Origin: Chloracidobacterium sp.
Lineage (GTDB): Bacteria > Acidobacteriota > Blastocatellia > Chloracidobacteriales > Chloracidobacteriaceae
Assembly: GCA_025057975.1 (NCBI GenBank)
Contig: JANWUV010000001.1
Coordinates: 62,001-126,000 of the forward strand
Direction: 5' to 3'
Length of the DNA: 64,000 nt
Below, in pieces: positions 22,229 through 35,338 of this stretch. Position 1 is the first letter of the stretch. Each line of letters starts with the position of its first letter. Below the pieces are notes generated by a model that saw nothing but the letters and a program-made list of their open reading frames with translations, had not been told where the DNA came from and did not search any database. Both the position numbers and the translations under genes were made by a program.

Positions 22229-22987
22229 ATGCCGCGTCCCCTAATCTTCGGACACCGAGGCGCGGCAGGAACGGCGCCGGAAAACACCCACGCGGCCTTT
22301 AGGCACGCTTTCGCTGTCGGAGCCGACGGCGTCGAACTGGATGTGCGGTGTTGCGCGTCGGGCGAGTTGGTGGTCATCCACGACGCTACTATTCATCGCA
22401 CCTCCAACGGCGCAGGCTACGTTGGTCAGCTTTCGCTCAAGGCTTTGCGTACGTTTGACTTTGGCGGATGGCACAGTTCGCAGTTCAGCGGCGAACCTAT
22501 CCCGACGCTGGAGGAAGTATTCGCACAGCTTCCGGCGGATAGACTCGTCAACGTCGAAATCAAAAACGACGGCTTCCACAGCCATGGCGAAGAAGCGGCG
22601 GTGGTGCAGCTTGTCGCCCGCTTCGGCCTACGCGAGCGCTGTTTGATTTCCTCGTTTAACCCACTTGTGCTGTGGCGGCTTCAGCAAGCCGACTCCCGCA
22701 TTGCGCTGGCCTACCTTTACCGGCCAGAGTCGCCTTGGTACTTGCGCCGCCTACCCATCACTCGCCTGCTGCAACTCAAAGCCATCCATCCTCATCACAC
22801 GCTGGTGACAGCAGCGAAGGTCGCCGCCGCCCATCGGCGCGGGTTGCAAGTCAATACTTGGACGGTCAACGAAGCAAGCGACTTTGAGCGAGTTCTCGCG
22901 TGTGGCGTAGACGGGATCATGACAGATTACCCAGAACGTCTCCTTGCCTGGTTGGACGCATGGCCGTATCGGGTCACGGCAACGTGA
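22229..22987 (+). CDS. Glycerophosphodiester phosphodiesterase
   Basis: A 252-residue TIM-barrel enzyme. It begins with FGHRGAAGTAPENTHAAF (the HR and E metal ligands), then GVELDVR and VIHDATIHRTSNGAG with the catalytic His and Asp, later NVEIKND. It releases glycerol 3-phosphate from glycerophosphodiesters during phospholipid turnover. No signal peptide is seen, so it is probably cytoplasmic. Its last 14 bases overlap the end of the convergent htrA-like gene. Confidence 0.92.
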   Translation: MPRPLIFGHRGAAGTAPENTHAAFRHAFAVGADGVELDVRCCASGELVVIHDATIHRTSNGAGYVGQLSLKALRTFDFGGWHSSQFSGEPIPTLEEVFAQLPADRLVNVEIKNDGFHSHGEEAAVVQLVARFGLRERCLISSFNPLVLWRLQQADSRIALAYLYRPESPWYLRRLPITRLLQLKAIHPHHTLVTAAKVAAAHRRGLQVNTWTVNEASDFERVLACGVDGIMTDYPERLLAWLDAWPYRVTAT

Positions 22988-24434
22988 ACGAAAAGAAGTT
23001 GGTGACGGCGCGACGTTCGCCTTGCGGCGTGCGTCCTAACGGACGGCTTACGGCTAGCACCAAGTCGTCGCCGGGACGCAAATCCGCCAACGCCGTGAGA
23101 AAATCCTCCGCTGTACGGACAGGACGGCGGTTGACAGCTGTGATGAGCATGCCCTCTTGCAAACCGCTCTCGGCCGCAAGGCTGACCGGGCTGACTTCTG
23201 TAATGAGCGCCCCGGCTTGCCCGCTGTAGAGGTCCTTTACGCCGAACTGCATCAGCTTCAGCGGCGAAGCGTCGGCGACATTCAAACCCAGTCGGCGGAG
23301 CATGGTTTCCGGTTCGTCGGGCGGTGCGTCGCTAGACGGGCCGCCGCGCCGCTCAAAGCGCGGGCGTGTTGTCCGCACTGGCGGCGAGAGGCGTTCTTCG
23401 GTGCGCAGGGTCACGACAGCTGGTTTCCCGTTGCGGAAGTAGCGCACTTCAACAGTAGTGTCGCCGGGCGTCGCCGCCAGCTCGCGGATCAGGTCGCGAT
23501 CACTGCCGATCCGCCGACCGGCGTATTCGACCACGACATCGCCGCTGCGCAAGCCAGCGGTATAAGCTGCCCCGCCTTCCTCAACGTGCTGAATGAGCGC
23601 GCCTTGGTCATCCGGCAGACCATAAACCCGTGCATACTGTGGCGTCACGCGATCAATGTAGACGCCCAGCAGACTGCGCGAGACCTGGCCGCGTTCGATA
23701 AGTTGCCGGGTCACGTCGCGGACGGTGGACGAAGGCAAAGCGAATCCGATGCCGCTGTAGCCACCGTCCCGTGAGGCGATTTGCGTATTGACGCCGATGA
23801 CCTCACCAGCCAAGTTGAGCAGCGGGCCGCCGGAATTCCCAAAGTTGATGGCGGCGTCGGTTTGCAGAAACTGCTGCAGCGTGTTGCGCCGGTCGGTCAC
23901 GCGATCCTTGGCGCTAATGATGCCAGTCGTCACGGTTTGATCCAATCCGAACGGACTCCCAATCGCCACTACCCATTCCCCAACCCGTAGGGCGTCGGAG
24001 TCGCCGAAGGTAAGCGGCTGAATATCGGCGCGTCCAATGAGCTTGAGCACCGCCAGATCGGTTTCAGGGTCGCCGGCGACAAACCGCGCTGGAAGTTGCC
24101 TGCCGTCCGCTAACCGAACCGTTAGTCGGGCGGCGTTCTGGACGACATGCAGATTGGTGACAATATGCCCCTCGCGGTCAATGATAAACCCAGAACCGGT
24201 TGCGCCGCCCAGGCCGCGCGCCAAGCTCGGACCCGCCGCACGAATGTTGACGACTGCTGGGCGAGCCATCTGCGCCACCCGACTGAAAGCCAAGCTTAGC
24301 GCATCAGCGGTTGGTGCAGGCGCAGCTTGAGAAACCGTCCGCCCGTGCCGTCCCACCAGGACGCCCGCGCCAAGGGCGCACATCAGCGCCAAACCAAGCA
24401 TGGCCGGTCGGAGATACCGTGGTTTGGCCGTCAT
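22974..24434 (-). CDS. HtrA/DegP-type serine protease with two PDZ domains
   Basis: A 486-residue periplasmic protease. An N-terminal signal or anchor segment (about residues 10-30) precedes a trypsin-like domain with all three catalytic residues: His in IVTNLHVVQNA, Asp in ETDLAVLKL and Ser in NFGNSGGPLLN. Two PDZ domains follow (about 270-365 and 390-480), the DegP layout. It degrades or refolds damaged envelope proteins. ATG 24434 has AAGGAGGT upstream. Compare the inactive relative at 38432-39880. Confidence 0.92.
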   Translation of the reverse strand: MTAKPRYLRPAMLGLALMCALGAGVLVGRHGRTVSQAAPAPTADALSLAFSRVAQMARPAVVNIRAAGPSLARGLGGATGSGFIIDREGHIVTNLHVVQNAARLTVRLADGRQLPARFVAGDPETDLAVLKLIGRADIQPLTFGDSDALRVGEWVVAIGSPFGLDQTVTTGIISAKDRVTDRRNTLQQFLQTDAAINFGNSGGPLLNLAGEVIGVNTQIASRDGGYSGIGFALPSSTVRDVTRQLIERGQVSRSLLGVYIDRVTPQYARVYGLPDDQGALIQHVEEGGAAYTAGLRSGDVVVEYAGRRIGSDRDLIRELAATPGDTTVEVRYFRNGKPAVVTLRTEERLSPPVRTTRPRFERRGGPSSDAPPDEPETMLRRLGLNVADASPLKLMQFGVKDLYSGQAGALITEVSPVSLAAESGLQEGMLITAVNRRPVRTAEDFLTALADLRPGDDLVLAVSRPLGRTPQGERRAVTNFFSFTLP

Positions 24435-24584
24435 CGCCGGACCTCCTTCAAACGCCGCACCCGGAGCCGCCGTTTCTTACCCGCTCAGCATGACGGCCGA
24501 CGGGTGACTGAAAGCCCACAACTCTAGGAACCCTCCGAGAACGCCCCTAGCTGCACCAACGACAGACGAGCCACCATTTGGCGG

Positions 24585-25853
24585 TCACATCACTGCCGGG
24601 TCAAAGAGATCATCGCCGGTGGTCTCGTGGTAAGCGGCTTCGCCATGCGCGTGTCGGTCAATACCTTCGCGCTCTTGGGTTGGAGAAAGCCGCAGCGGGA
24701 TCACCAACCCCACAAGCTTTAGCAGAACGAACGTCATCACGAGCGTGTAAGCCAACGTCGCTGCGACGGCCATTGCCTGCGTGAGCAAGAGTTTTGGATT
24801 GCCGGCAAGCAAGCCGTTTGCGCCCGCTTCATTGAGCGACTGTTGGGCGAACACGCCGGTCAGCAGTGCGCCGCACATACCGCCGACGCCGTGACAGGCG
24901 AAGACATCTAGTGTGTCATCCAAGCTCAAGCGGCTGCGCCACTGAATCGCAGCATAGCACGCGGCTGCGGTTAGTCCGCCAATCGCCATAGCGGCTAGCG
25001 GTGAGACAAAACCGGCCGCCGGCGTCACACCAACCAACCCCACCACCACCGCCGTTGCCGCGCCTACGGCAGTGGCCTTGCCAGTGCGAAATGTCTCAAT
25101 CCCCAACCACACTAAAACCGCCGCCGCCGCGCCAGCGTGGGTGGTGACAAGAGCAAGACCGGCTAGACCACCCGCCGTCAACGCCGAACCGGCATTGAAC
25201 CCAAACCATCCGAACCACAGCAGCCCGGCACCCAAAAGCACGAACGGTACATTGTGCGGGCGCAGCGGTGCCCGCTTGACATCAGTGCGCGCCCCAACTA
25301 GTGCGGCGGCGACCAAGGCCGCCGCGCCAGCTGTGATGTGCACGACCGTACCGCCAGCGAAGTCAAGCGCCCCGGCTGACCGAATCCACCCGCCAAGGCC
25401 CCAGACCCAGTGGGCAACTGGGGCATAGACGCCGATACACCATACCGCCACAAACAGCAGGTAGGCCCGAAAGTCCATGCGCCCGACGACGGCACCAGCA
25501 ATAAGCGCCGGCGTGATGGCGGCGAACATCCCCTGAAACGCCGCAAAAGCCAAATGCGGTACCGTTCCGGCGTAGTCCGTCTGGGGTGCGCCGCCGACGC
25601 CCTGAAAGCCGGCCCAGGCCGTGCCGCCGAGGATTGCTCCGCCGGGCGAGAACGCCAGCGAGTAGCCGATTAAAACCCACATCAGCGTCGCCACGCAGAG
25701 CGCGCCAAAGGTCATCATTAGGGTGTTGAGCACATGCCGCCGGCTGACCAATCCGCCGTAAAAAAACGCCAGTCCCGGCGTCATCAGGAAAACCAAGGCG
25801 GCGGAGACCAGAAGCCAAGCAGTATCGCCGGACGAAACACCAGTGTCGTTCAT
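24585..25853 (-). CDS. amtB: Ammonium transporter AmtB
   Basis: A 422-residue channel-type ammonium transporter with about eleven membrane segments. The family signature is visible in ALDFAGGTVVHITAGAAAL, whose His is the first of the pore twin histidines, and the second lies in DVFACHGVGGMCGALLTG. The C-terminal tail (LSPTQEREGIDRHAHGEA) is the part that PII proteins contact in relatives. Its start overlaps the PII stop by four bases, the usual glnK-amtB coupling. No signal peptide is evident. Confidence 0.95.
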   Translation of the reverse strand: MNDTGVSSGDTAWLLVSAALVFLMTPGLAFFYGGLVSRRHVLNTLMMTFGALCVATLMWVLIGYSLAFSPGGAILGGTAWAGFQGVGGAPQTDYAGTVPHLAFAAFQGMFAAITPALIAGAVVGRMDFRAYLLFVAVWCIGVYAPVAHWVWGLGGWIRSAGALDFAGGTVVHITAGAAALVAAALVGARTDVKRAPLRPHNVPFVLLGAGLLWFGWFGFNAGSALTAGGLAGLALVTTHAGAAAAVLVWLGIETFRTGKATAVGAATAVVVGLVGVTPAAGFVSPLAAMAIGGLTAAACYAAIQWRSRLSLDDTLDVFACHGVGGMCGALLTGVFAQQSLNEAGANGLLAGNPKLLLTQAMAVAATLAYTLVMTFVLLKLVGLVIPLRLSPTQEREGIDRHAHGEAAYHETTGDDLFDPAVM

Positions 25854-26275
25854 ACGGGCTTGTTACCAACGTCGGTGGGGGTTGTCGCCGATGCTTCTTG
25901 CAATGCGCGTGCCTGTACCTCATCGGCCGTCAGCGGCGTCAAAGCAGCTTCATTTTCCTCACCGGTGCGGATGCGAATGACACGCTCCAGCGGCTGGACG
26001 AAAATCTTCCCATCCCCGACTGCGCCCGTCCTGGCTGCCGTCAGGATGGCGGTGATAGCCGGTTCCACAAACGGCTCAGAAACCGCCATGCGCACTTCCA
26101 CCTTCTCGGTAAACTCAACCACAATCCGTTGGCCGCGGACGTACTCAATAATCTCCGGCTCACCGCCGTGTCCGCGCACACCGCTGACGGAAAGACCCGT
26201 CACGCCGACGCGAAAAAGCGCATTTTTGACCTCAGCCAGCCGTTCCGGCCGGATGATCGCCGTGATGAGCTTCAT
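25850..26275 (-). CDS. PII family nitrogen regulatory protein with altered T-loop
   Basis: A 141-residue PII protein, longer than the usual 112 by a polar C-terminal tail. The core is clear: MKLITAIIRPERL, GVTGLSVSGVRG, ARTGAVGDGKIFV and RVIRIRTGE. Aligned without gaps to E. coli GlnB, the T-loop differs: Tyr51 is Ile, residue 49 is Gln, Gln39 is Glu, Lys40 is Pro and Gly41 is Glu. So the uridylylation site and part of the 2-oxoglutarate site are missing. Coupling to amtB points to ammonium-channel control. The start lies within the end of the upstream small gene (44-base overlap). Confidence 0.9.
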   Translation of the reverse strand: MKLITAIIRPERLAEVKNALFRVGVTGLSVSGVRGHGGEPEIIEYVRGQRIVVEFTEKVEVRMAVSEPFVEPAITAILTAARTGAVGDGKIFVQPLERVIRIRTGEENEAALTPLTADEVQARALQEASATTPTDVGNKPV

Positions 26276-26612
26276 ACCGTTCTTCGCTTTCTTGCCGTCT
26301 CACCCACTCCGCCGGCGTGTCTACTTCGACCGGCGGCGCGGCTGACGCTTCTGGTTGAGCGCCGCCGTTGAGGACGGCGCGGCGTGCAGGATACACCTCT
26401 TCGGCCAAATAACGGGCGTACGCCTCAAATTCGTCGAAGTCCCCGCCTTGGGCTACGATATACACGTCGTCGCCGACGACTTCAAACAGATAACTTTCAC
26501 CACACGAGGCAATGTAGCGATACTCCACCCGATCGTCATCTGTTTGCGTGATATACCGTGAGCCAAGGATCATGTTAAGTTTGCCGAGATACGTAGGCTC
26601 CAGTTTAACCAT
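26232..26612 (-). CDS. Unknown small acidic protein overlapping PII
   Basis: A 126-residue soluble protein, acidic, with a mixed N-terminal domain (about 1-85; RVEYRYIASCGESYLFEVVGD) and a disordered Pro/Ala/Glu tail. I do not recognise it. Its last 44 bases overlap the start of PII in another frame, so it is probably the first gene of the PII-amtB transcript. The large ATPase ends 70 bases upstream on the same strand. A role in nitrogen control is only suggested by position. Confidence 0.7.
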   Translation of the reverse strand: MVKLEPTYLGKLNMILGSRYITQTDDDRVEYRYIASCGESYLFEVVGDDVYIVAQGGDFDEFEAYARYLAEEVYPARRAVLNGGAQPEASAAPPVEVDTPAEWVRRQESEERYEAHHGDHPAGTAG

Positions 26613-26682
26613 AGCTACTGCGCTTCGGTGAGGTTCGGCCTCAATGCAAGGAGTGACGCCAACAGCGCATTATAACGGCGCA

Positions 26683-29600
26683 TTATTCCGTTAGAATCTC
26701 ATTCAAAACGCGGATGGTGTCATCATCGAGAAGCGGCATTTCGTCATTCCCAACCAAGGCGGCGATTTTGCGAATGGTTTCCTGCGACACCTGCTGTCGC
26801 CGACGTTTGAGCCGCTCCCGAATCTCCTCGCGTTGACTGCGCAGAATCTCACGGTGAATCTCTAGACCACGCCGCACCAACTTGAGCGCTCGTTCCTCCG
26901 CCTGCCTCAACCGGCTGGCTTCTTCCGGCGCAAAACCGCAGCGACATTTGGGCTGGGTCAGCAGAATTTCTTCAACCGGTTCGTTGCATACCATCTGGTA
27001 CAGGTTGGAGATTTCGTTGATGGCGTCCACGAGGAAGTCTTGGCGGCTGATGCTGAGCTGCGTGAGCATTTCTAGGTTCTGCCACTCCGAGCTTGAAACC
27101 AGCCGGGTGCAGAGCGGCTCAATGACATTGGCCTGGGTCGCGCCAGCGTGTAGCAGGCAGTAAAACTCCGCGTAAACGGGCTGAAACGCTCCAAAGGTGA
27201 GGTCCACCTGCTTGCGGTTGTTTGGATAAAACAGCTGCCAAGGTGGCGCGCCCCGCAGCTTGAAGGTGGCGCGAATGCGCTCGGCCGTAGGGTTGTTGGT
27301 GGGGAAGCTCTCATTGAGGTAACGCAGCTTAGCTTCACAACTGGCCTGGGCCTGACTGTAGCTGTAAACGGCTTCAAGGATGGCGCGGTCGCGCCACAGC
27401 GCATCGAAATCACTGTCGAACAGGAAGCTGATTTCCTCCATTTCTTCAGTGATGGAGCGCCGCATCAAGGCGTGCCGAATGTGCGCCGCAACGCGGTCGA
27501 ACCGTCGAACAACCTGAATCGCTTCCCAGATTTCCGTCTCTTCCTGTGGGGCTTTCGACAGCGTTTCCAAGGCTTTGGACAGATCACGCTGCCGCCACGC
27601 TTGGTAGTACGCGCCAAGTTCCGAGAGCGCACGGTCAACGTCTTCGGGAATGCACATCTCAACGCGCTGGCGGTCTGGCGCCACCAGATGCCCAATCCAG
27701 AGCGCCGCATCCAGCGAGAGCGCCTCAGGCATGCCTTCCGGTGAGACCGGCGAGGTGAGCGGCAACAACCACTCCCACATCTGCCACGGCGCTGGCCGGC
27801 TGGGCAGCGGAACATCACTAACCGTGCCGTTTCGAAAGACAAACCGCCCCTCTGAAAGATACTTCCGGCGAAACAGCGCTGCGCCGGCTTGCAGGGCTTC
27901 GTCAACAATACGCCTTGCGACTTCATCCGTCGGCAGCCCGCCGCCCAGAATCGTTGGGTCGGACAAACACACCAAACGCTTGAGCGCCCAGACATCATCG
28001 GTGTCGAGCGCGCCCGGCAGCCAGTGGACGCCTAAGTCATCAGCTCGCAAAGCCTCCAGATCGAAATCGGCTTGACCGGCGCGGCGTGGAAAGTGGACGC
28101 GCATCTGGTAATCGTTGCTCCGATGGGACTGAGCCGGCTCCCAGATAATCCCCAGCGCATCTTGGCGGATAACATGCCAGAGGCTGGCGCACTGAAGACT
28201 CCACAACTTATCGCCCTGTTGGGCAAAACCGACTGGAAAGTCTTCAAACAGGAGGCTTCCAGAGGCCAGCAGGGCAAGGTTGATGCGCGGATCATTGTCC
28301 GACAGCGCCCTGGCATGAGCCGTCACAAGGCTGTCGAGAGCTTCGCCGGGGTGGAGTGGAAAGCGGTATTCACGATTTTCAGGGTCGTCGCCAGTGACGA
28401 TGACGTTCTTCGCCAGCGCCTTGATTTGCTGAAGCAAGGCCGCCGACAACTTGTAGGTCGGCTTCTGGCCATACAGGTCATAAAACAAGATACCGTTGGT
28501 CAGGTCGGCCACCGTCGCTGGAATGCCGGCCAGCGAGTGCATGAGAATCGCCTTGAGCAGCATGCGCGTATGCAAACGCTGCCCTTGGCTGATGCGTGGA
28601 ATAACCGCCTCCACCGCTTGATCGTAGTTCTCAAAGGCATGGGCTAGCGACGGCGTACTCCGCAGCATCGGCTCAAGCACGTCAAACATTTCGTCCACAG
28701 TGAAGAGGCTTTCCGCCGGCCGGTTCCGAATCCGCTCCGCCGCCTTCAATGCGAAGGCTGGAAAGGAAAAACCACTCAGGTAGCGCCGCAGCCGAACACC
28801 AATGTCCCATGCCATCGGATGGAGCGGGTACAGGTTGATGAGCCGCTGTTCATCCAGCTGAAGCTTAGGCAACTTGTGTTGTAGTTGTTCCCGCACTTGG
28901 GTGACGGCGTGCCGCTGCCGGGCGTTTTTGGTCAGCAAGTGCGCGCCAATAAGCGCTGGAATGGCGTTTTCACCGAGGTATTCAATGACATACCTGCCAA
29001 GCAACGCGCTTACCTGTTCCGCCGACAGCCGCCGTCCGCGGGCGCTGTCGAGTAGAGTGTCCGTCGCCGACACATAGACGCACAACGGCGCTTGCTGTGA
29101 GACACGGCTCAGGAGTTCAAGCGTCCCCACCACAACGCCTGCCGTCCGAGGCGTTCGCTCATAGAGCAGGTCGTCAAGACCGTCAATCACGATGACCACC
29201 CCATCAGTCGGCGGCAACGACCGACAGGCAGTAAGCAGGTCGTCCACCATCGGCGTCACACCATCCGGCGGCGGCGTGGAAGTCGTCAGCATGTAGCTCA
29301 GGAAGCGCGCCAAGTAGTCCAGCGGGGCAAGCGTAGTGTCCGACCGGCTGACTTGCCCACTGTAAAAACTGACGATATGCCAACGCCGTGACCCAAGCTG
29401 GGCATGAATCTCCTGCAACCGCTGTGAAACCTGACCAAGCGGTTTGCCTGCAAACTGCGCCAGCGCATGCACCAACCGTAACAGAAACGATTTGCCGCTA
29501 CCCGGCGGCCCAACCAGCAATGACGCCCGATGACCGGCGGGTGTCGGTATGATCAACCGTTCGCTCAGACGCTGAAGAACATCGCCGAACTCATACGTCA

Positions 29601-29700
29601 GCAATGCCCGCTGGAGCAGGTCACGCTCCCACCCAGGCGTAGAGAAATCCACTGGCGTGAACTCAGCGACATTGAGGCAGTCTCGAATTTTTGAAGCCAT
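26683..29700 (-). CDS. Large orphan P-loop ATPase (BrxC/PglY/DUF6079-like)
   Basis: A 1005-residue ATPase. Residues 1-60 are a short N-terminal region (IRDCLNVAEFTPVDF), followed by Walker A GPPGSGKS (64-71), Walker B VVIVIDGLDD (168-177) and a sensor-like VYVSATDTL. The long middle and C-terminal helical regions resemble the STAND-like ATPases of BREX and phage-defence systems (BrxC, PglY, DUF6079), an assignment made from architecture only. Near residues 918-921 is KCRC, perhaps part of a zinc site, then a long charged coiled coil. No methylase, PglZ-type phosphatase or nuclease gene is nearby. Base use matches its neighbours. Confidence 0.6.
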   Translation of the reverse strand: MASKIRDCLNVAEFTPVDFSTPGWERDLLQRALLTYEFGDVLQRLSERLIIPTPAGHRASLLVGPPGSGKSFLLRLVHALAQFAGKPLGQVSQRLQEIHAQLGSRRWHIVSFYSGQVSRSDTTLAPLDYLARFLSYMLTTSTPPPDGVTPMVDDLLTACRSLPPTDGVVIVIDGLDDLLYERTPRTAGVVVGTLELLSRVSQQAPLCVYVSATDTLLDSARGRRLSAEQVSALLGRYVIEYLGENAIPALIGAHLLTKNARQRHAVTQVREQLQHKLPKLQLDEQRLINLYPLHPMAWDIGVRLRRYLSGFSFPAFALKAAERIRNRPAESLFTVDEMFDVLEPMLRSTPSLAHAFENYDQAVEAVIPRISQGQRLHTRMLLKAILMHSLAGIPATVADLTNGILFYDLYGQKPTYKLSAALLQQIKALAKNVIVTGDDPENREYRFPLHPGEALDSLVTAHARALSDNDPRINLALLASGSLLFEDFPVGFAQQGDKLWSLQCASLWHVIRQDALGIIWEPAQSHRSNDYQMRVHFPRRAGQADFDLEALRADDLGVHWLPGALDTDDVWALKRLVCLSDPTILGGGLPTDEVARRIVDEALQAGAALFRRKYLSEGRFVFRNGTVSDVPLPSRPAPWQMWEWLLPLTSPVSPEGMPEALSLDAALWIGHLVAPDRQRVEMCIPEDVDRALSELGAYYQAWRQRDLSKALETLSKAPQEETEIWEAIQVVRRFDRVAAHIRHALMRRSITEEMEEISFLFDSDFDALWRDRAILEAVYSYSQAQASCEAKLRYLNESFPTNNPTAERIRATFKLRGAPPWQLFYPNNRKQVDLTFGAFQPVYAEFYCLLHAGATQANVIEPLCTRLVSSSEWQNLEMLTQLSISRQDFLVDAINEISNLYQMVCNEPVEEILLTQPKCRCGFAPEEASRLRQAEERALKLVRRGLEIHREILRSQREEIRERLKRRRQQVSQETIRKIAALVGNDEMPLLDDDTIRVLNEILTE

Positions 29701-29889
29701 AGGTCAAAGCTGGCAACGCCGTCAGACAGCACACGGCGTCCTCAACGCCAAGATGCGCAACTAGTTTTCCGAGCAAACGTCAGGCATCGGGTTTGAGATG
29801 TTATGGGCACCGTGTCTAGTGTTTACGCCCATCATACTCGCCCCACAGGCGGGACGCCATGCTTCACGAGGGGTTTCTCAATCCTAGGT

Positions 29890-30903
29890 TTAGCTCCGTG
29901 AGCGGGCGCGGTTGGTGGGCTGTCGCGCCGGATTCAGTTTCCCAGATGAAGAACGGGCGCGCACCGCCGTCACCAAGCGTAGGTAGGCCGCCGCCGCTCG
30001 ATACCGCACGGCGTCTTTGGGGTCTTGAAAGAGCGGCACAAGGTCACGTCGCGCCACTGTCTGTTCACTCATCGCCAGCGCATGAACGGCGGCGGCGCGA
30101 ACCGTCCAATCTTCATCTGTCAACGCCTCGCGCAGCATGGCGACGGTTTCGGCGTCCTTGACAGGCGGTAGAACGGCGATGGCCTGCGCACGGCCTGAGA
30201 GGTTAGCGTCCGCCAGCAGCCCTGCCAACGAGGAAAGTCCCATGCCAAGGCCCGGCACGGGCATAAACCCGATCCCATACCGAAAAGCCAGCCGGAAAAA
30301 GCCGCCGGGCGTTTTCATCGAACGAAACAACGCGCGGCGCTGACTTGAAAAATACCCTGATTTGGCTCGCCGCTCGCCGGCCACGATGTCGAGGAGGGCC
30401 TGTTTTCCGTCCGCATTCCCGTGCGCATAGAGCGCTTTGGCAGCAGCGAAGGCGACTTCCGGCGTCTCACTGTTCAGGGCCTTTCTGAGCAATGGCACGG
30501 CGCGCGGGTCGCGCAAGCCAGCGAGCGTAGCGCAGGCGGCAACCTGAACGTGCATGTCCTTATCAGCGATAGCGGTTTCCAGCAGCGGGAAGGGATCGTT
30601 CTCAACGCGGGTCAAGCTCAACGCTATGACAACTTCGCGCCGTCGGTCGGCGTTTCGCTCGGTCAACCCCTGCGCCAAGATGATCCGCGCCGCTTCAAGA
30701 GCAGCCCCGCGTTCCTCCGGCGTTTCTTCCTTCGCCGGTTGCGGAGAGCCGACCGCTGTACCACTTGCTACTGTACCACCCGCTACGCCAGTGGCGACGC
30801 TGAGCGGCGACTGCGCGTTTGCCGTTACGGCTAGCAAGCCACTCAGCAGCAGCACGCTGCTTTGTCGCCGGACGGAACTTTCTGACTTGCTCCGCAGAGA
30901 CAT
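29890..30903 (-). CDS. Secreted HEAT-repeat protein
   Basis: A 337-residue exported protein: a signal peptide ending near ANAQS (about residue 31), a Gly/Ala-rich linker, then helical repeats of HEAT type, for example DKDMHVQVAACATLAGLRD and TDEDWTVRAAAVHALAM, each about 31 residues long. A glycine-rich amphipathic stretch (GIGFMPVPGLGMGLSSLAG) interrupts the repeats and may touch a membrane. The C-terminus is basic. HEAT repeats bind other proteins; the partner is unknown. The start at 30903 gives the best signal peptide. Confidence 0.78.
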   Translation of the reverse strand: MSLRSKSESSVRRQSSVLLLSGLLAVTANAQSPLSVATGVAGGTVASGTAVGSPQPAKEETPEERGAALEAARIILAQGLTERNADRRREVVIALSLTRVENDPFPLLETAIADKDMHVQVAACATLAGLRDPRAVPLLRKALNSETPEVAFAAAKALYAHGNADGKQALLDIVAGERRAKSGYFSSQRRALFRSMKTPGGFFRLAFRYGIGFMPVPGLGMGLSSLAGLLADANLSGRAQAIAVLPPVKDAETVAMLREALTDEDWTVRAAAVHALAMSEQTVARRDLVPLFQDPKDAVRYRAAAAYLRLVTAVRARSSSGKLNPARQPTNRARSRS

Positions 30904-31129
30904 TTTTTTCACGCCAAGTCGAGTCAAAAACAGCAGCCGGACGGCGGCTGCGTCCACCACCGCCTTGTCGAAAGCCTGTCCCTCAGAGATTGCTCTACAG
31001 CGTCATGGAGCCGGAAGCCACTCCATTTCTACGGAACGGCGGCTTAGGCATCGCTACCGGCAGAACGCCATCGTCATCTTTCAAAGATCTTTACAACTCA
31101 AGGCGACGACGTTCCCTGTCGGGAAGCGA

Positions 31130-32581
31130 CTACAGCGCTAACACGCGCTCCAACATTCGACCCGCCCGGAACATCCGGCTTTCCTCAAAGGCAGGAGCGA
31201 TGATCTGGAGGCCGATCGGTAGCCCTTCGACGCTCTTTCCGCAGGGCAAACTCATACCGGGTACGCCGGCCAGGTTGAGCGTTACGGTGTAGATGTCCGA
31301 CAGATACATCTGCAGGGGGTCGCCCGTCTTCTCACCCAGTTTGAAAGCAGGCGTCGGCGTGGTGGGCGTCACGATGACCTCGCATTGTTCAAATGCGCGG
31401 TCGAAATCACGCCGCAAAAGCGTCCGCACCTTCTGCGCTTTCAGGTAATAGGCGTCGTAGTAGCCCGACGACAGGGCATATGTGCCTAGCAAGATGCGCC
31501 GCTTGACTTCGGGGCCGAAGCCCTGCTCGCGGCTTAGGGCGTACAGATCGTGAACCGTCGTCACATCCGGCGCGCGGTAGCCGTACCGCACACCGTCAAA
31601 GCGCGCCAGGTTAGCGCTGGCCTCGGCCATAGCGATGATGTAGTAGTCAGCGATGGCATAGTCGAGGTGTGGCAGCGACACTTCAACGAGCCTCGCGCCA
31701 AGCCGCTCATAGGCTTTGAGCGCCGTCCGAACGGCGGCTTCCACTTCAGCGTCCAGTCCGGCACCGAAGGCTTCCTGCGCTACCCCGATGCGCCAACCAC
31801 GCAGGTCGGCGTCGCCGTCGTCAGAAAGCTCTGCTAGGTAGTCCGGGACCGGATGCAGCGAACTGGTGGCGTCGTGTTCGTCGTAGCCGGCCATGACGCC
31901 GAGCATGCGCGCCGCATCGCGGACGGTGCGCGTCATCGGGCCGATTTGGTCAAGTGACGAACCAAACGCGACCAATCCGTAACGCGATACGCGGCCGTAA
32001 GTCGGCTTGACGCCGACAATTCCGCAAAAGGCGGCCGGCTGCCGAATCGAGCCGCCGGTGTCGCTGCCGGTGGCCGCCAGACATAGCCCGGCCGCTACCG
32101 CCGCCGCGCTGCCGCCGCTCGAGCCACCAGGTACGCGGGTTGGGTCGAGCGGATGCCGTACGGGGCCGAACGCCGAGTTTTCATTTGACGACCCCATGGC
32201 GAACTCATCCAGATTCGCCTTGCCGACAATGACCGCACCGGCGGCTTCCAGTCGCGCCACGGCCGTCGCCGTGTAGGTCGCCGTATAGTTCGCCAGCATT
32301 CGGGAGGCGCAGGTCGTCCGCGTTCCGGCCAGACACTGGTTGTCCTTGACGACGATGGGCACACCCTCCAACGGCCGCAGCGGCTCGCCGGCGGCGATTC
32401 GCGCATCGGTCATCGCCGCCTGTTCCAGCGCCCGGTCGGGCAGCGTGGACAATAGCGCGTTGAGGTCGGGGTTGCGCTGTTCAATGGCCGCCAGCGCCGC
32501 CCGACAGACTTCGGTCGCCGAACAGTCGCGCGCCCGCAACGCCGCATGCAGGCGGTCAATGTCAAAATCAAGTAGATTCAC
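31130..32581 (-). CDS. gatA: Asp/Glu-tRNA amidotransferase subunit A (GatA)
   Basis: A 483-residue amidase-signature enzyme. The catalytic Ser-cisSer-Lys set is visible as PIVVKDN (Lys), [16 protein letters not shown] (cis-Ser) and [14 protein letters not shown] (nucleophile). GatA supplies ammonia from glutamine to convert Glu-tRNAGln or Asp-tRNAAsn. GatB and GatC are not adjacent. The GTG at 32581 ([10 protein letters not shown]) is favoured because the longer frame would start with TTG at 32623 inside a perfect inverted repeat. The gene diverges from hutH. Confidence 0.92.
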
Positions 32582-32611
32582 CACGGTTACGCTAAAAAAC
32601 GGTATGGTGTC

Positions 32612-32633
32612 GCCGACGACCAAGGTCGTCGGC
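32612..32633. repeat. Perfect inverted repeat 1, gatA-hutH spacer
   Basis: Arms GCCGACGACC and GGTCGTCGGC with a 2-base centre, in the divergent promoter region. It shares the 7-mer GGTCGTC with the next repeat. Confidence 0.6.
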
Positions 32634-32659
32634 CACGGCGACGGTAACTGGTCGCCTAC

Positions 32660-32682
32660 GCGGTCGTCAATTTGACGACCGC
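32660..32682. repeat. Perfect inverted repeat 2, gatA-hutH spacer
   Basis: Arms GCGGTCGTCAA and TTGACGACCGC around a single central base, 26 bases after repeat 1. The two repeats together offer four GGTCGTC half-sites, a layout expected for cooperative regulator binding. Confidence 0.6.
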
Positions 32683-32735
32683 CGTGATGAACCGGCGGTG
32701 CCGGTTTTCAGGCTTTCCAAACGGAGCAGCCCCCC

Positions 32736-34247
32736 ATGCAACTCAGTGGACAGAACTTAACCCTGCAAAACGTCGTGGACGTAGCGCGCCGTACCTCAGT
32801 ACAGGTGGAGATTGCGCCGGAGGCGCTTGCCCGCATGGCCGAAGCCCGCGCGGTTGTTGCGTCCATTGTGGCGCAGGGGCGCATCGTATACGGCGTCAAT
32901 ACGGGCTTCGGCAAGCTTTCTTCCGTCACCATCCCGCCGACGGCGTTGGCCGAGCTTCAGGTCAACTTGGTGCGTTCACATGCTTGCGGCGTTGGTCGTC
33001 CGCTTTCTGAAGCCGAAACGCGTGCGATGATGCTGCTGCGGGCGAATGTTTTGGCGCGTGGATTTTCCGGGGTGCGTCCAGTCGTTGTGGAGCGGCTGGT
33101 CGGCTTGCTCAACGCAGGCGTGCACCCAGTCATCCCAGAGAAAGGATCGGTCGGGGCCAGCGGCGATCTGGCCCCGTTGGCCCATCTGGCTCTTGTACTT
33201 ATCGGGGAAGGCGAAGCCTTCTTTCGCGGCGAGCGGCTTCCCGGACACGTGGCACTGGCGCGGGCCGGTTTGGAGCCGCTGACGCTTGAAGCCAAGGAAG
33301 GGCTAGCGCTGCTCAATGGAACGCAGGCGATGTGCGCTGTCGGCGGGCTGGCGCTGGCGCGGTTGCTCGAACTAGCCGAACTAGCCGATGTCGCTGGGGC
33401 GCTGTCGCTTGACGCGCTACATGGTACGGCCGCGGCCTTCGACGCACGCATCCACGCCGCGCGGCCTCACAGCGGACAGATCGCCGTCGCTGCTCATTTG
33501 CGCGACTTGCTCGCCGGCAGCGAGATTCTAGCCTCGCACCGGGATTGCCCGCGCGTACAGGACGCCTACAGTCTGCGGTGTATGCCGCAGGTTCACGGCG
33601 CGGTGCGCGATGTCCTTGAATTTGCACGGCGGACGCTTGAAACCGAGTTCAACAGCGCCACCGACAACCCCCTCGTCTTTACGGACACCGGCGACGTGCT
33701 TTCCGGCGGCAACTTTCACGGTGCGCCCGTTGCGTTGGCGCTGGACGCCTGCGCCATAGCTGCCGCAACGTTAGGTGGCATCGCCGAGCGCCGCATTGAG
33801 CGCCTGCTCAACCCTGATTTGTCGGGGTTGCCGGCGTTTCTGGCGCGTCAGCCGGGTACGCAGTCGGGGCTGATGATGGCGCAAGTGACGGCGGCGGCGC
33901 TGTGTAATGAAAATATGGGACTGGCGCACCCCGCCTCGGTCGGATCCTTGCCGACGGGTGCGGCCAAGGAAGATTTTGTCTCCATGGGGATGACGGCGGC
34001 GCTCAAGCTCCGCACCGTCGCCGAAAACGTCGCTGACATTTTGGCGATTGAGTTACTGGCGGCGACGCAGGCGCTCCCGTTTTTGCGCCCGCGCCGAACC
34101 AGCCCACGGCTGCAACGAGTCGAGGAGGTTCTACTCGCCATCGTCCCGCCGCTGGAAGGCGACACGCCGCTGACGCCGTACATCGCCGCCATTCGAGAGC
34201 GGCTCAGCGAAGTTTTAGCCGCAGCAAACGCCACCCCGACACCGTAA
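32736..34247 (+). CDS. hutH: Histidine ammonia-lyase HutH
   Basis: A 503-residue lyase that removes ammonia from histidine to give urocanate. The self-forming MIO cofactor comes from the ASG in GSVGASGDLAPLAHLAL, and the active-site GVNTGFGKLSS block is near residue 55. The DNPLVF and SVGSLPTGAAKEDFVSMG motifs complete the family pattern. Other hut genes are not in the window. An upstream double inverted repeat lies in the promoter region shared with gatA. Confidence 0.96.
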   Translation: MQLSGQNLTLQNVVDVARRTSVQVEIAPEALARMAEARAVVASIVAQGRIVYGVNTGFGKLSSVTIPPTALAELQVNLVRSHACGVGRPLSEAETRAMMLLRANVLARGFSGVRPVVVERLVGLLNAGVHPVIPEKGSVGASGDLAPLAHLALVLIGEGEAFFRGERLPGHVALARAGLEPLTLEAKEGLALLNGTQAMCAVGGLALARLLELAELADVAGALSLDALHGTAAAFDARIHAARPHSGQIAVAAHLRDLLAGSEILASHRDCPRVQDAYSLRCMPQVHGAVRDVLEFARRTLETEFNSATDNPLVFTDTGDVLSGGNFHGAPVALALDACAIAAATLGGIAERRIERLLNPDLSGLPAFLARQPGTQSGLMMAQVTAAALCNENMGLAHPASVGSLPTGAAKEDFVSMGMTAALKLRTVAENVADILAIELLAATQALPFLRPRRTSPRLQRVEEVLLAIVPPLEGDTPLTPYIAAIRERLSEVLAAANATPTP

Positions 34248-34279
34248 CTGTGAAGTGGACTTTCCGCACACGGCGGTGT

Positions 34280-35338
34280 TTACGGGGCGATGTCGCGCGC
34301 AATGGATAAAACGTCGCGTAACATGGCAGCGGCCGTCCCCACTGGGCCGTCCTCCATGCTGAACGCGGTTGTCCGCCCGAAGATGTCGCTCTGATAGACA
34401 ATGCCGGCTTCCTGCATGCCAAGTCGCGCCAGCGGATGGTCGGCTGGAACGGCCGTCGGACGGACGCTTAGGGCGTAGCGGCCATCCGGGCCGCGTTCCG
34501 CCTTGGCCAGCAGAATCAAGCCGCCGCCGTTGCGCCGCGCCTGCCGGATGTCGTCGGGGGTGACGCGAGTGATGCCCTCTACGGCGATGTCGGTCAGGCG
34601 GGTCGGTTGGCGCAGGACAGCGTTAGCCAGAATGAGCAGCTTGTTAGCGGCGTCCCAGCCTTCAACGTCCAGCGTTGGGTCCGGCTCGGCGATTCCAATA
34701 CGCTGCGCTTCCGCCAGCGCCTCGGCGTAGGTTTTCCCTTCGCCCATCAGTGTCAGCATGACCTGTGTGGTGCCATTGAGAACGGCTTCGATGGAGCGAA
34801 TCTCCCCGCCGGCTAGGTCACGCCACCCGATGTTAACGCTTGGAAGCGCGCCGGCGACTGCACCGCTGAAACGCAGCCGCGGCCGCTGCGGATCGCCGGA
34901 CCAGTCGCTCAGTCGGGCCAGTTCATCGAAGGCGACTACCAGGGCTCCCTTGCTGGCCATCACAACGTGCAGCCCCCGTTGCAGCGCCGTACGGACCAGA
35001 TCGAGGCCCGGCTGTCCGGTGTGAATGTCCGTCGGCGTGGCTTCAAGGAGGAGATCGGCTACAAGTTCCCGAACCGCTGCCGCCATCTCCATGGACTGAA
35101 TGTTGCCGCCGGCCAGCGCCGTCACGCCGCGCCGTGCGCGCTTGCAGGCGACGATGGCGGCTGTGTCCAGCCCGTGTTCGGAGGCGATACAGCCGGAGGA
35201 ATCGGCGACAGCGACAAACTCAAGCGCCACACCGTAGCGTTTACGCAGCAGCGCCGTGCGCGCTGGAAGAATCTCTAGGAATGTGCGACCGATGTTGCCC
35301 AAACCGGTCAAGATGCAACGTAGCGTGCGTGTTTCCAT
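34280..35338 (-). CDS. Homoserine dehydrogenase, short form
   Basis: A 352-residue oxidoreductase of the threonine/methionine branch. The Rossmann motif is CILTGLGNIGRTFLE, the catalytic region has VMASKGALV, and the substrate domain carries FSGAVAGALPSVN, NGTTQVMLT and GWDAANKLLILAN. It lacks the C-terminal ACT domain of feedback-inhibited long forms. The SKGAL variant resembles shorter, often archaeal-type enzymes. It converges with hutH, with 32 bases between the stops. Confidence 0.92.
   Translation of the reverse strand: METRTLRCILTGLGNIGRTFLEILPARTALLRKRYGVALEFVAVADSSGCIASEHGLDTAAIVACKRARRGVTALAGGNIQSMEMAAAVRELVADLLLEATPTDIHTGQPGLDLVRTALQRGLHVVMASKGALVVAFDELARLSDWSGDPQRPRLRFSGAVAGALPSVNIGWRDLAGGEIRSIEAVLNGTTQVMLTLMGEGKTYAEALAEAQRIGIAEPDPTLDVEGWDAANKLLILANAVLRQPTRLTDIAVEGITRVTPDDIRQARRNGGGLILLAKAERGPDGRYALSVRPTAVPADHPLARLGMQEAGIVYQSDIFGRTTAFSMEDGPVGTAAAMLRDVLSIARDIAP

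Follow-up and report, generated by a model that had tools for sequence, protein, structure and literature searches.

What does a homologue of BrxC do when no BREX partner is encoded beside it? The question is raised by a 64,000-nucleotide stretch of Chloracidobacterium sp. (assembly GCA_025057975.1, contig JANWUV010000001.1, positions 62,001 to 126,000), hereafter the window, in which a gene on the reverse strand (26683..29700), recognized from its open reading frame and profile matches, encodes a P-loop protein of 1005 amino acids. We call this short-type orphan DUF6079/BrxC-like protein P1; on the same strand it is followed by a small gene, P2, and by the genes of a PII family protein and an AmtB ammonium transporter. 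With about even confidence, and on the basis of sequence comparison, we read P1 as a vertically inherited homologue of BrxC that would serve outside defence, perhaps together with P2, as a switch or scaffold that binds ATP.

An orphan homologue of BrxC

The resemblance of P1 to BrxC, PglY and DUF6079 proteins, which a preliminary description of the window had proposed from its architecture, was borne out by profile searches. P1 matches Pfam DUF6079 (PF19557) with an E value of 2.9e-15 and 55.3 bits (cut-off 23), the best stretch being residues 47-300, and a second stretch in its C-terminal part (profile positions 951-1190) scores 21.3 bits alone. The PADLOC BrxC profile is matched with an E value of 1.9e-9, and the PADLOC BrxC models also match six of six further orphans scanned. 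In hhalign comparisons, eleven short-type proteins align nearly end to end with eleven long orphan proteins of Blastocatellia (E 2.3e-97) and with a set of four BREX-linked and three f23/G104 proteins (E 4e-46); the latter alignment runs through the first winged helix-turn-helix (wHTH) and the alpha+beta domain of BrxC, which may have counterparts in the short family. Searches of PDB sequences returned generic P-loop proteins and noise for P1 and for query A1, and nothing at 0.01 for query A2, while query A3 weakly reached two BrxC chains.

Several hallmarks of BrxC are retained. The Walker A motif of the N-terminal P-loop domain (GPPGSGKS, residues 64-71; 29488..29511, reverse strand) agrees with that of BrxC, and GK[ST] is found in all 12 short-type sequences. 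P1 also keeps a YPLHP-type core motif and, between two C-terminal helices predicted by a low-confidence model, the three-cysteine motif C905...C919-x-C921-G-F (26932..26988, reverse strand), a possible zinc hook. This motif is present in 11/11 complete short-type proteins (that of G008, cut by a contig end, was left out of the count), in 4/4 BREX-linked and 3/3 f23/G104 proteins and in the y-type protein of G224, but is absent from the G110 protein. Four long proteins of the genus have lost it, and the seven other long ones keep it.

The protein is nevertheless short, since complete short-type members measure 1001-1016 amino acids (n=11) against 1200-1300 for BrxC. About 185 residues are missing relative to a BREX-linked protein, chiefly opposite canonical positions 672-880, and the last ~50 residues are absent; from published domain limits, the missing stretch would mostly correspond to the position of the second wHTH.

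The preliminary description also held that no methylase, PglZ or nuclease surrounds the gene, and indeed none was detected among the nine other window genes scanned (22229-35338). Generic PADLOC matches of an HtrA-type gene (RT-Protease_XI, 1.7e-16) and of a HEAT gene (3.2e-11) are read as shared domains. PglZ was detected in 0/7 genomes of the genus and in none of nine other genomes tested alongside BREX-type ones, and the genomes of 16 long or f23-type proteins added later gave no PglZ match; in the positive controls, which were five acidobacterial genomes with methylase-linked DUF6079 proteins, it was found in all five, in G121 on another contig. PglX-type methylases lie near the BREX-type DUF6079 genes of G116, G121, G165 and G207 (1650-1920 bits) and of G110, and two PglX profiles gave at most partial matches (<= 58 bits) in the genomes of the genus. 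Among the first 26 short, long and f23/G104 proteins, G056 and G027 showed sub-cut-off PglZ matches on other contigs. Pfam identified no defence gene among 20 neighbours scanned at ten loci of relatives. In the portions of the literature on BrxC and DUF6079 that were accessible (PMC12839542, PMC13326643 and PMC8245765 among it), no description of orphan DUF6079 proteins was found, nor did we find literature linking BrxC with Acidobacteria or Chloracidobacterium with PII or an ammonium transporter.

Distribution, phylogeny and selection

The named near relatives of P1, which match it at 79-84% along its full length, come from Chloracidobacterium sp. CP2_5A and from two uncultured organisms, a Chloracidobacterium and a Blastocatellia bacterium. 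Matches at E <= 0.001 occur in 28 of 58 relatives' genomes, its own included; with the cut-off at E <= 1e-40, these 58 genomes and a set of 118 from the class gave one and the same list of 11. These are all seven genomes of the genus, the three other genomes of the family (45-59% identical; contig-cut in G008) and G017, with a pair of copies at 29-32%. Most of the weaker matches represent a longer paralogue (~1160-1290 amino acids), which is present in all seven genomes of the genus, as a partial frame in G002. In the phylum, 50 of 247 genomes have DUF6079 matches, part of which were examined.

In a tree of the first 520 residues (31 sequences, excluding y_G190, z_G261 and eco57_G110) the short-type proteins form a clade with 99/99 support, apart from the BREX-linked sequences, and its branching follows the kinship labels, the yardstick used here. 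The short-type proteins were not united in a tree that also contained a misframed y_G190 together with z_G261 and eco57_G110, both of them long branches.

P1 is under purifying selection. The median ratio of nonsynonymous to synonymous substitution rates (dN/dS) is 0.094 across the seven genomes of the genus (21 pairs; median dS 1.40, near saturation) and 0.081 in the close pair G001-G005, at dS 0.22. These values are ordinary beside the medians of AmtB (0.064), PII (0.053), gatA (0.072), hutH (0.107), P2 (0.110) and the long paralogue (0.076); in the close pair PII (0.257) and P2 (0.239) lie above their medians. The frame of P1 is open in 7/7 genomes of the genus, and the architecture is uniform across the short clade.

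A tblastn search of 72,556 plasmid and 50,697 phage records gave no match to P1, and as it missed BREX BrxC too, it shows the absence of close relatives only. Viral contigs, scanned with two peptide patterns, yielded no relative, which likewise bears on close ones only.

The ATP site

According to the accessible part of a study of Acinetobacter BrxC (PMC13326643), the residues that hold ATP are K78, E269 and R430 together with K326/R330 of the partner, and the substitution E269Q lowers ATPase activity and favours ATP-bound dimers. PDB chains 9zn5 and 9zll probably represent it, as suggested by a molecule named BrxC-BrxB and by a D-Q Walker B that would fit E269Q; a Walker-B D-E is seen in 9zn5.

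The short family departs from this arrangement. The Walker B of P1 (VVIVIDGLDD, residues 168-177; 29170..29199, reverse strand) has the aspartate without the following glutamate, and all 12 short-type sequences read D-[G/S/A/C/D/N] at this position. The glutamate is absent from 26/26 short, long and f23/G104 proteins of a first motif count, which covered 32 sequences (12 short, 11 long, 3 f23/G104, 4 BREX-linked, G110 and y_G224, with y_G190 and z_G261 omitted), and from 41/42 once 16 further long or f23-type proteins were added; four more y-type proteins, outside this count, were also read. At the position of R330, in a distant alignment, arginine occurs in one of the 12 short-type sequences, that of P1, which is also the only case among the 26, and in 0/13 of the added proteins readable there, so that this finger arginine is missing from 38/39 short and long-orphan-type proteins; opposite K326, P1 has no basic residue. 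Both the glutamate and the arginine are present in 5/5 BREX-linked sequences and in the Acinetobacter chain, and the G261 protein has D-E without the finger arginine. For the stretch of the sensor-2 arginine (R430), the two alignments covering short-type sequences disagree. The pattern D-small-h-D-D of the P1-type Walker B presumably resembles that of STAND ATPases.

From these sequence features, we infer that P1 would bind ATP and that hydrolysis may be slow or proceed by another route. The most likely mechanism would thus be that of a nucleotide-gated switch or scaffold in a core process, which could hold host DNA or protein partners.

P2 and the PII-AmtB genes

As had been described from the sequence, the small gene and PII-AmtB follow P1 closely on one strand. 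P2 (26232..26612, reverse strand) encodes 126 amino acids, of which residues ~1-75 are conserved and the tail is variable, and it is the candidate partner of P1. The gap between the two genes (26613..26682, reverse strand) is 70 bp, with no terminator-like site listed; the overlap is 44 bp between P2 and PII and 4 bp between PII and AmtB. A promoter scan found two sites against 1.5 expected.

For P2, scans against Pfam, PADLOC and NCBIfam yielded nothing up to E 0.1. Its relatives are found in the same ten family genomes as those of P1 (E <= 7.2e-16), with nothing under 0.01 elsewhere among the 58 relatives' genomes. P1 and P2 adjoin in 7/7 genomes of the genus, with gaps of 70, 52, 45, 27, 43, 30 and 44 bp, which is more than chance would give. 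In G008, P1 (L044:2866-5081) runs off a contig end and P2 (L108:40-297) opens another contig, and the two may be adjacent there too, without PII-AmtB. The AlphaFold2 model of P2 has a mean predicted local distance difference test score (pLDDT) of 67.5 and gave no Foldseek match under E 0.5. The fold of the methane monooxygenase inhibitory subunit was considered and set aside, given that the best VIA Z score of 7.4 (64 residues, 2.2 A) is not above the stated background of the tool.

The PII family protein (25850..26275; 84 bits) and the AmtB transporter (24585..25853; 381 bits), both on the reverse strand, are neighbours of P1 and P2 in six of seven genomes of the genus. The T-loop stretch of the window PII, GHGGEPEIIEYVRGQ, looks unusual beside what we take to be the canonical sequence. 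A survey of gene neighbourhoods confirmed the order P1-P2-PII-AmtB on one strand in these six genomes, all of Chloracidobacterium among the ten of the family, and did not extend the linkage beyond the genus.

P1 does not always travel with PII-AmtB. G004, a draft genome that is 99% complete, keeps P1-P2; AmtB was not found in it, and the only PII present is another copy. Its contig ends ~720 bp past P2, with no PII there, so that the loss of PII-AmtB is judged on a draft. Past P2 in this genome (L034:13376-14086) there is a 197-amino-acid frame with no Pfam match, by eye perhaps the remnant of a mobile element. G009 (99% complete) has P1, P2 and AmtB and no PII. PII-AmtB lies on a different contig from P1 and P2 in G007, and in G008 on a contig other than that of either gene; what comes after P2 in G008 is two frames of unknown function and a histidine kinase. 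P1-P2 are retained in G004 without AmtB or the adjacent PII, and both genes occur in G009 without PII; the nitrogen link can be lost without loss of P1-P2. The cluster is probably a genus-level arrangement transcribed as a single message, and it looks to be no functional dependency of P1, whose place beside the ammonium-uptake genes seems incidental.

Upstream of P1, gatA and a gene for a HEAT-repeat protein (29890..30960 in the window, same strand) are kept in five of the seven genomes of the genus; the upstream gene is of the CobW type in G003 and of the TldD type in G004. Elsewhere, P1 adjoins molybdenum-hydroxylase genes in G009 (by Pfam) and in G007 (the same blastp clusters, with triosephosphate isomerase), and of the two copies of G017 one has a helicase and an ABC ATPase nearby, the other SurA- and MreB-type genes.

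Evidence against and alternative explanations

A number of observations weigh against a non-defence, ATP-binding P1 that works with P2. In G007, 13 kb separate P1 from P2 on a single contig; in G009 they are on separate contigs, well inside both, and the P1 relatives of G017 come without P2. Regarding the ATP site, P1 itself carries R236 at the finger position, the paired acidic residues D176-D177 might yet allow hydrolysis, the Walker B of the long paralogue of G006 (the one exception above) reads D-E, and glutamate and arginine are both kept in 5/5 y-type proteins of unresolved context (G224, G190, G176, G062 and G172); no PglZ was found in G224, the one such genome tested. The motif split tracks clades, not strictly the absence of partners; since both residues are also intact in the y-type group, their loss marks branches and is not by itself a test for defence. 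In addition, presence throughout a family is compatible with a role in defence, G007 alone within the family has PglZ and long PglX matches (these lie on contigs that do not carry its orphans), residues 101-200 are the fastest-evolving part of P1 (dN/dS 0.275), and the AlphaFold2 model of P1, built on four sequences (the window and L034-L036), was unusable (pLDDT 38).

A solitary defence gene, one of the two roles entertained in the preliminary description, or a two-gene system with P2, would have P1 sense invading DNA and act alone or with P2 against phages. The homology to a BREX protein, the fast stretch just mentioned and the variable tail of P2 fit this proposal, which is weakened by the presence of P1 in all ten family genomes examined, by a tree that follows kinship, by ordinary dN/dS and by the lost Walker-B glutamate; moreover, there are no BREX partners, no defence gene was seen by Pfam among the neighbours scanned, no effector domain was found, and plasmids and phages hold no close relative, in searches too weak for distant ones. 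We consider it unlikely. The other suggested role, adoption for nitrogen sensing, in which P1 (with P2) would read the PII/2-oxoglutarate/ATP state and control AmtB or transcription, draws on the tight same-strand cluster (P1-P2 gaps of 27-70 bp in the genus), on its retention in G003 despite different upstream genes, and on the P1-P2 gap without a listed terminator-like site. It loses ground through G004, which as far as the draft shows keeps P1-P2 without AmtB or an adjacent PII, through G009 without PII, and through the scattered genes of G007 and the separate contigs of G008, and it seems to us improbable. That an old BREX system has decayed and left P1 as its remnant could be supposed from the missing central stretch and the altered catalytic motif, and is hardly credible for a gene whose frame is open throughout the genus, whose dN/dS is low and whose architecture is the same across the short clade. 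The reading of P1 as an inherited non-defence protein, perhaps acting with P2, is the one we prefer.

Other orphan DUF6079 proteins

The genome of the window has a second, long orphan DUF6079 gene (L048:8753-12475, G000:C18), with LptE and a DUF512-PDZ radical-SAM-like gene next to it. Among the f23 DUF6079 genes (L113, L114 and L115), L114 adjoins a penicillin-binding protein, and the 759-amino-acid neighbour of L115 looks similar by eye, which would make this another housekeeping setting. Proteins of the y-type group (L118, L120 and L121; ~1200-1480 amino acids, glutamate and arginine intact) have a divergently transcribed neighbour of ~320 amino acids that looks alike by eye; a PADLOC scan of two of these three neighbours gave no match.

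It is tempting, though rather doubtful, to suppose that the Acidobacteriota hold vertically inherited, non-defence branches of BrxC, mostly without Walker-B glutamate and finger arginine, that serve as ATP-binding switches in a core process, two of them in Chloracidobacterium and one tied to P2; BREX would have recruited BrxC from a housekeeping ATPase of this kind, or the branches would be domesticated BREX parts. If the reading of P1 is true, a relative that is spread through the whole family, differs in its ATP site and comes without BREX partners would show that the kin of BrxC, known as the BREX scaffold, have a life outside defence; automatic annotation of BrxC as defence would be unsafe in the Acidobacteriota, and P1 would offer a natural contrast for testing the role of hydrolysis in BrxC.

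Comparison with known systems

P1 shares with BrxC/PglY (DUF6079) proteins such as Acinetobacter BrxC (PMC13326643) the N-terminal P-loop domain, the Walker A and a YP-x-HP-type motif, and it aligns with BrxC of BREX end to end by profile, the three-cysteine motif standing near the C-terminus in both. It differs in length, as BrxC has 1200-1300 amino acids and a second wHTH in the available text of PMC12839542, and in lacking the Walker-B glutamate, a conserved finger arginine and PglX/PglZ partners. As partners, glutamate, conserved finger and length all depart from the known system, P1 should not be filed as a BREX BrxC. Among the Acidobacteriota, the long orphan DUF6079 proteins (1177-1278 amino acids; L048-L056, L113, L115, L116, L124 and L125) are chromosomal like P1 and, with f23/G104, lack the Walker-B glutamate and finger arginine in 14 sequences as the short type does, but they are full length, occupy separate tree branches and have other neighbours where scanned (LptE with the DUF512-PDZ gene, or a penicillin-binding protein). 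The locus is like known PII-AmtB operons in that PII and AmtB stand in tandem, and differs from them in that P2 and P1 precede the pair.

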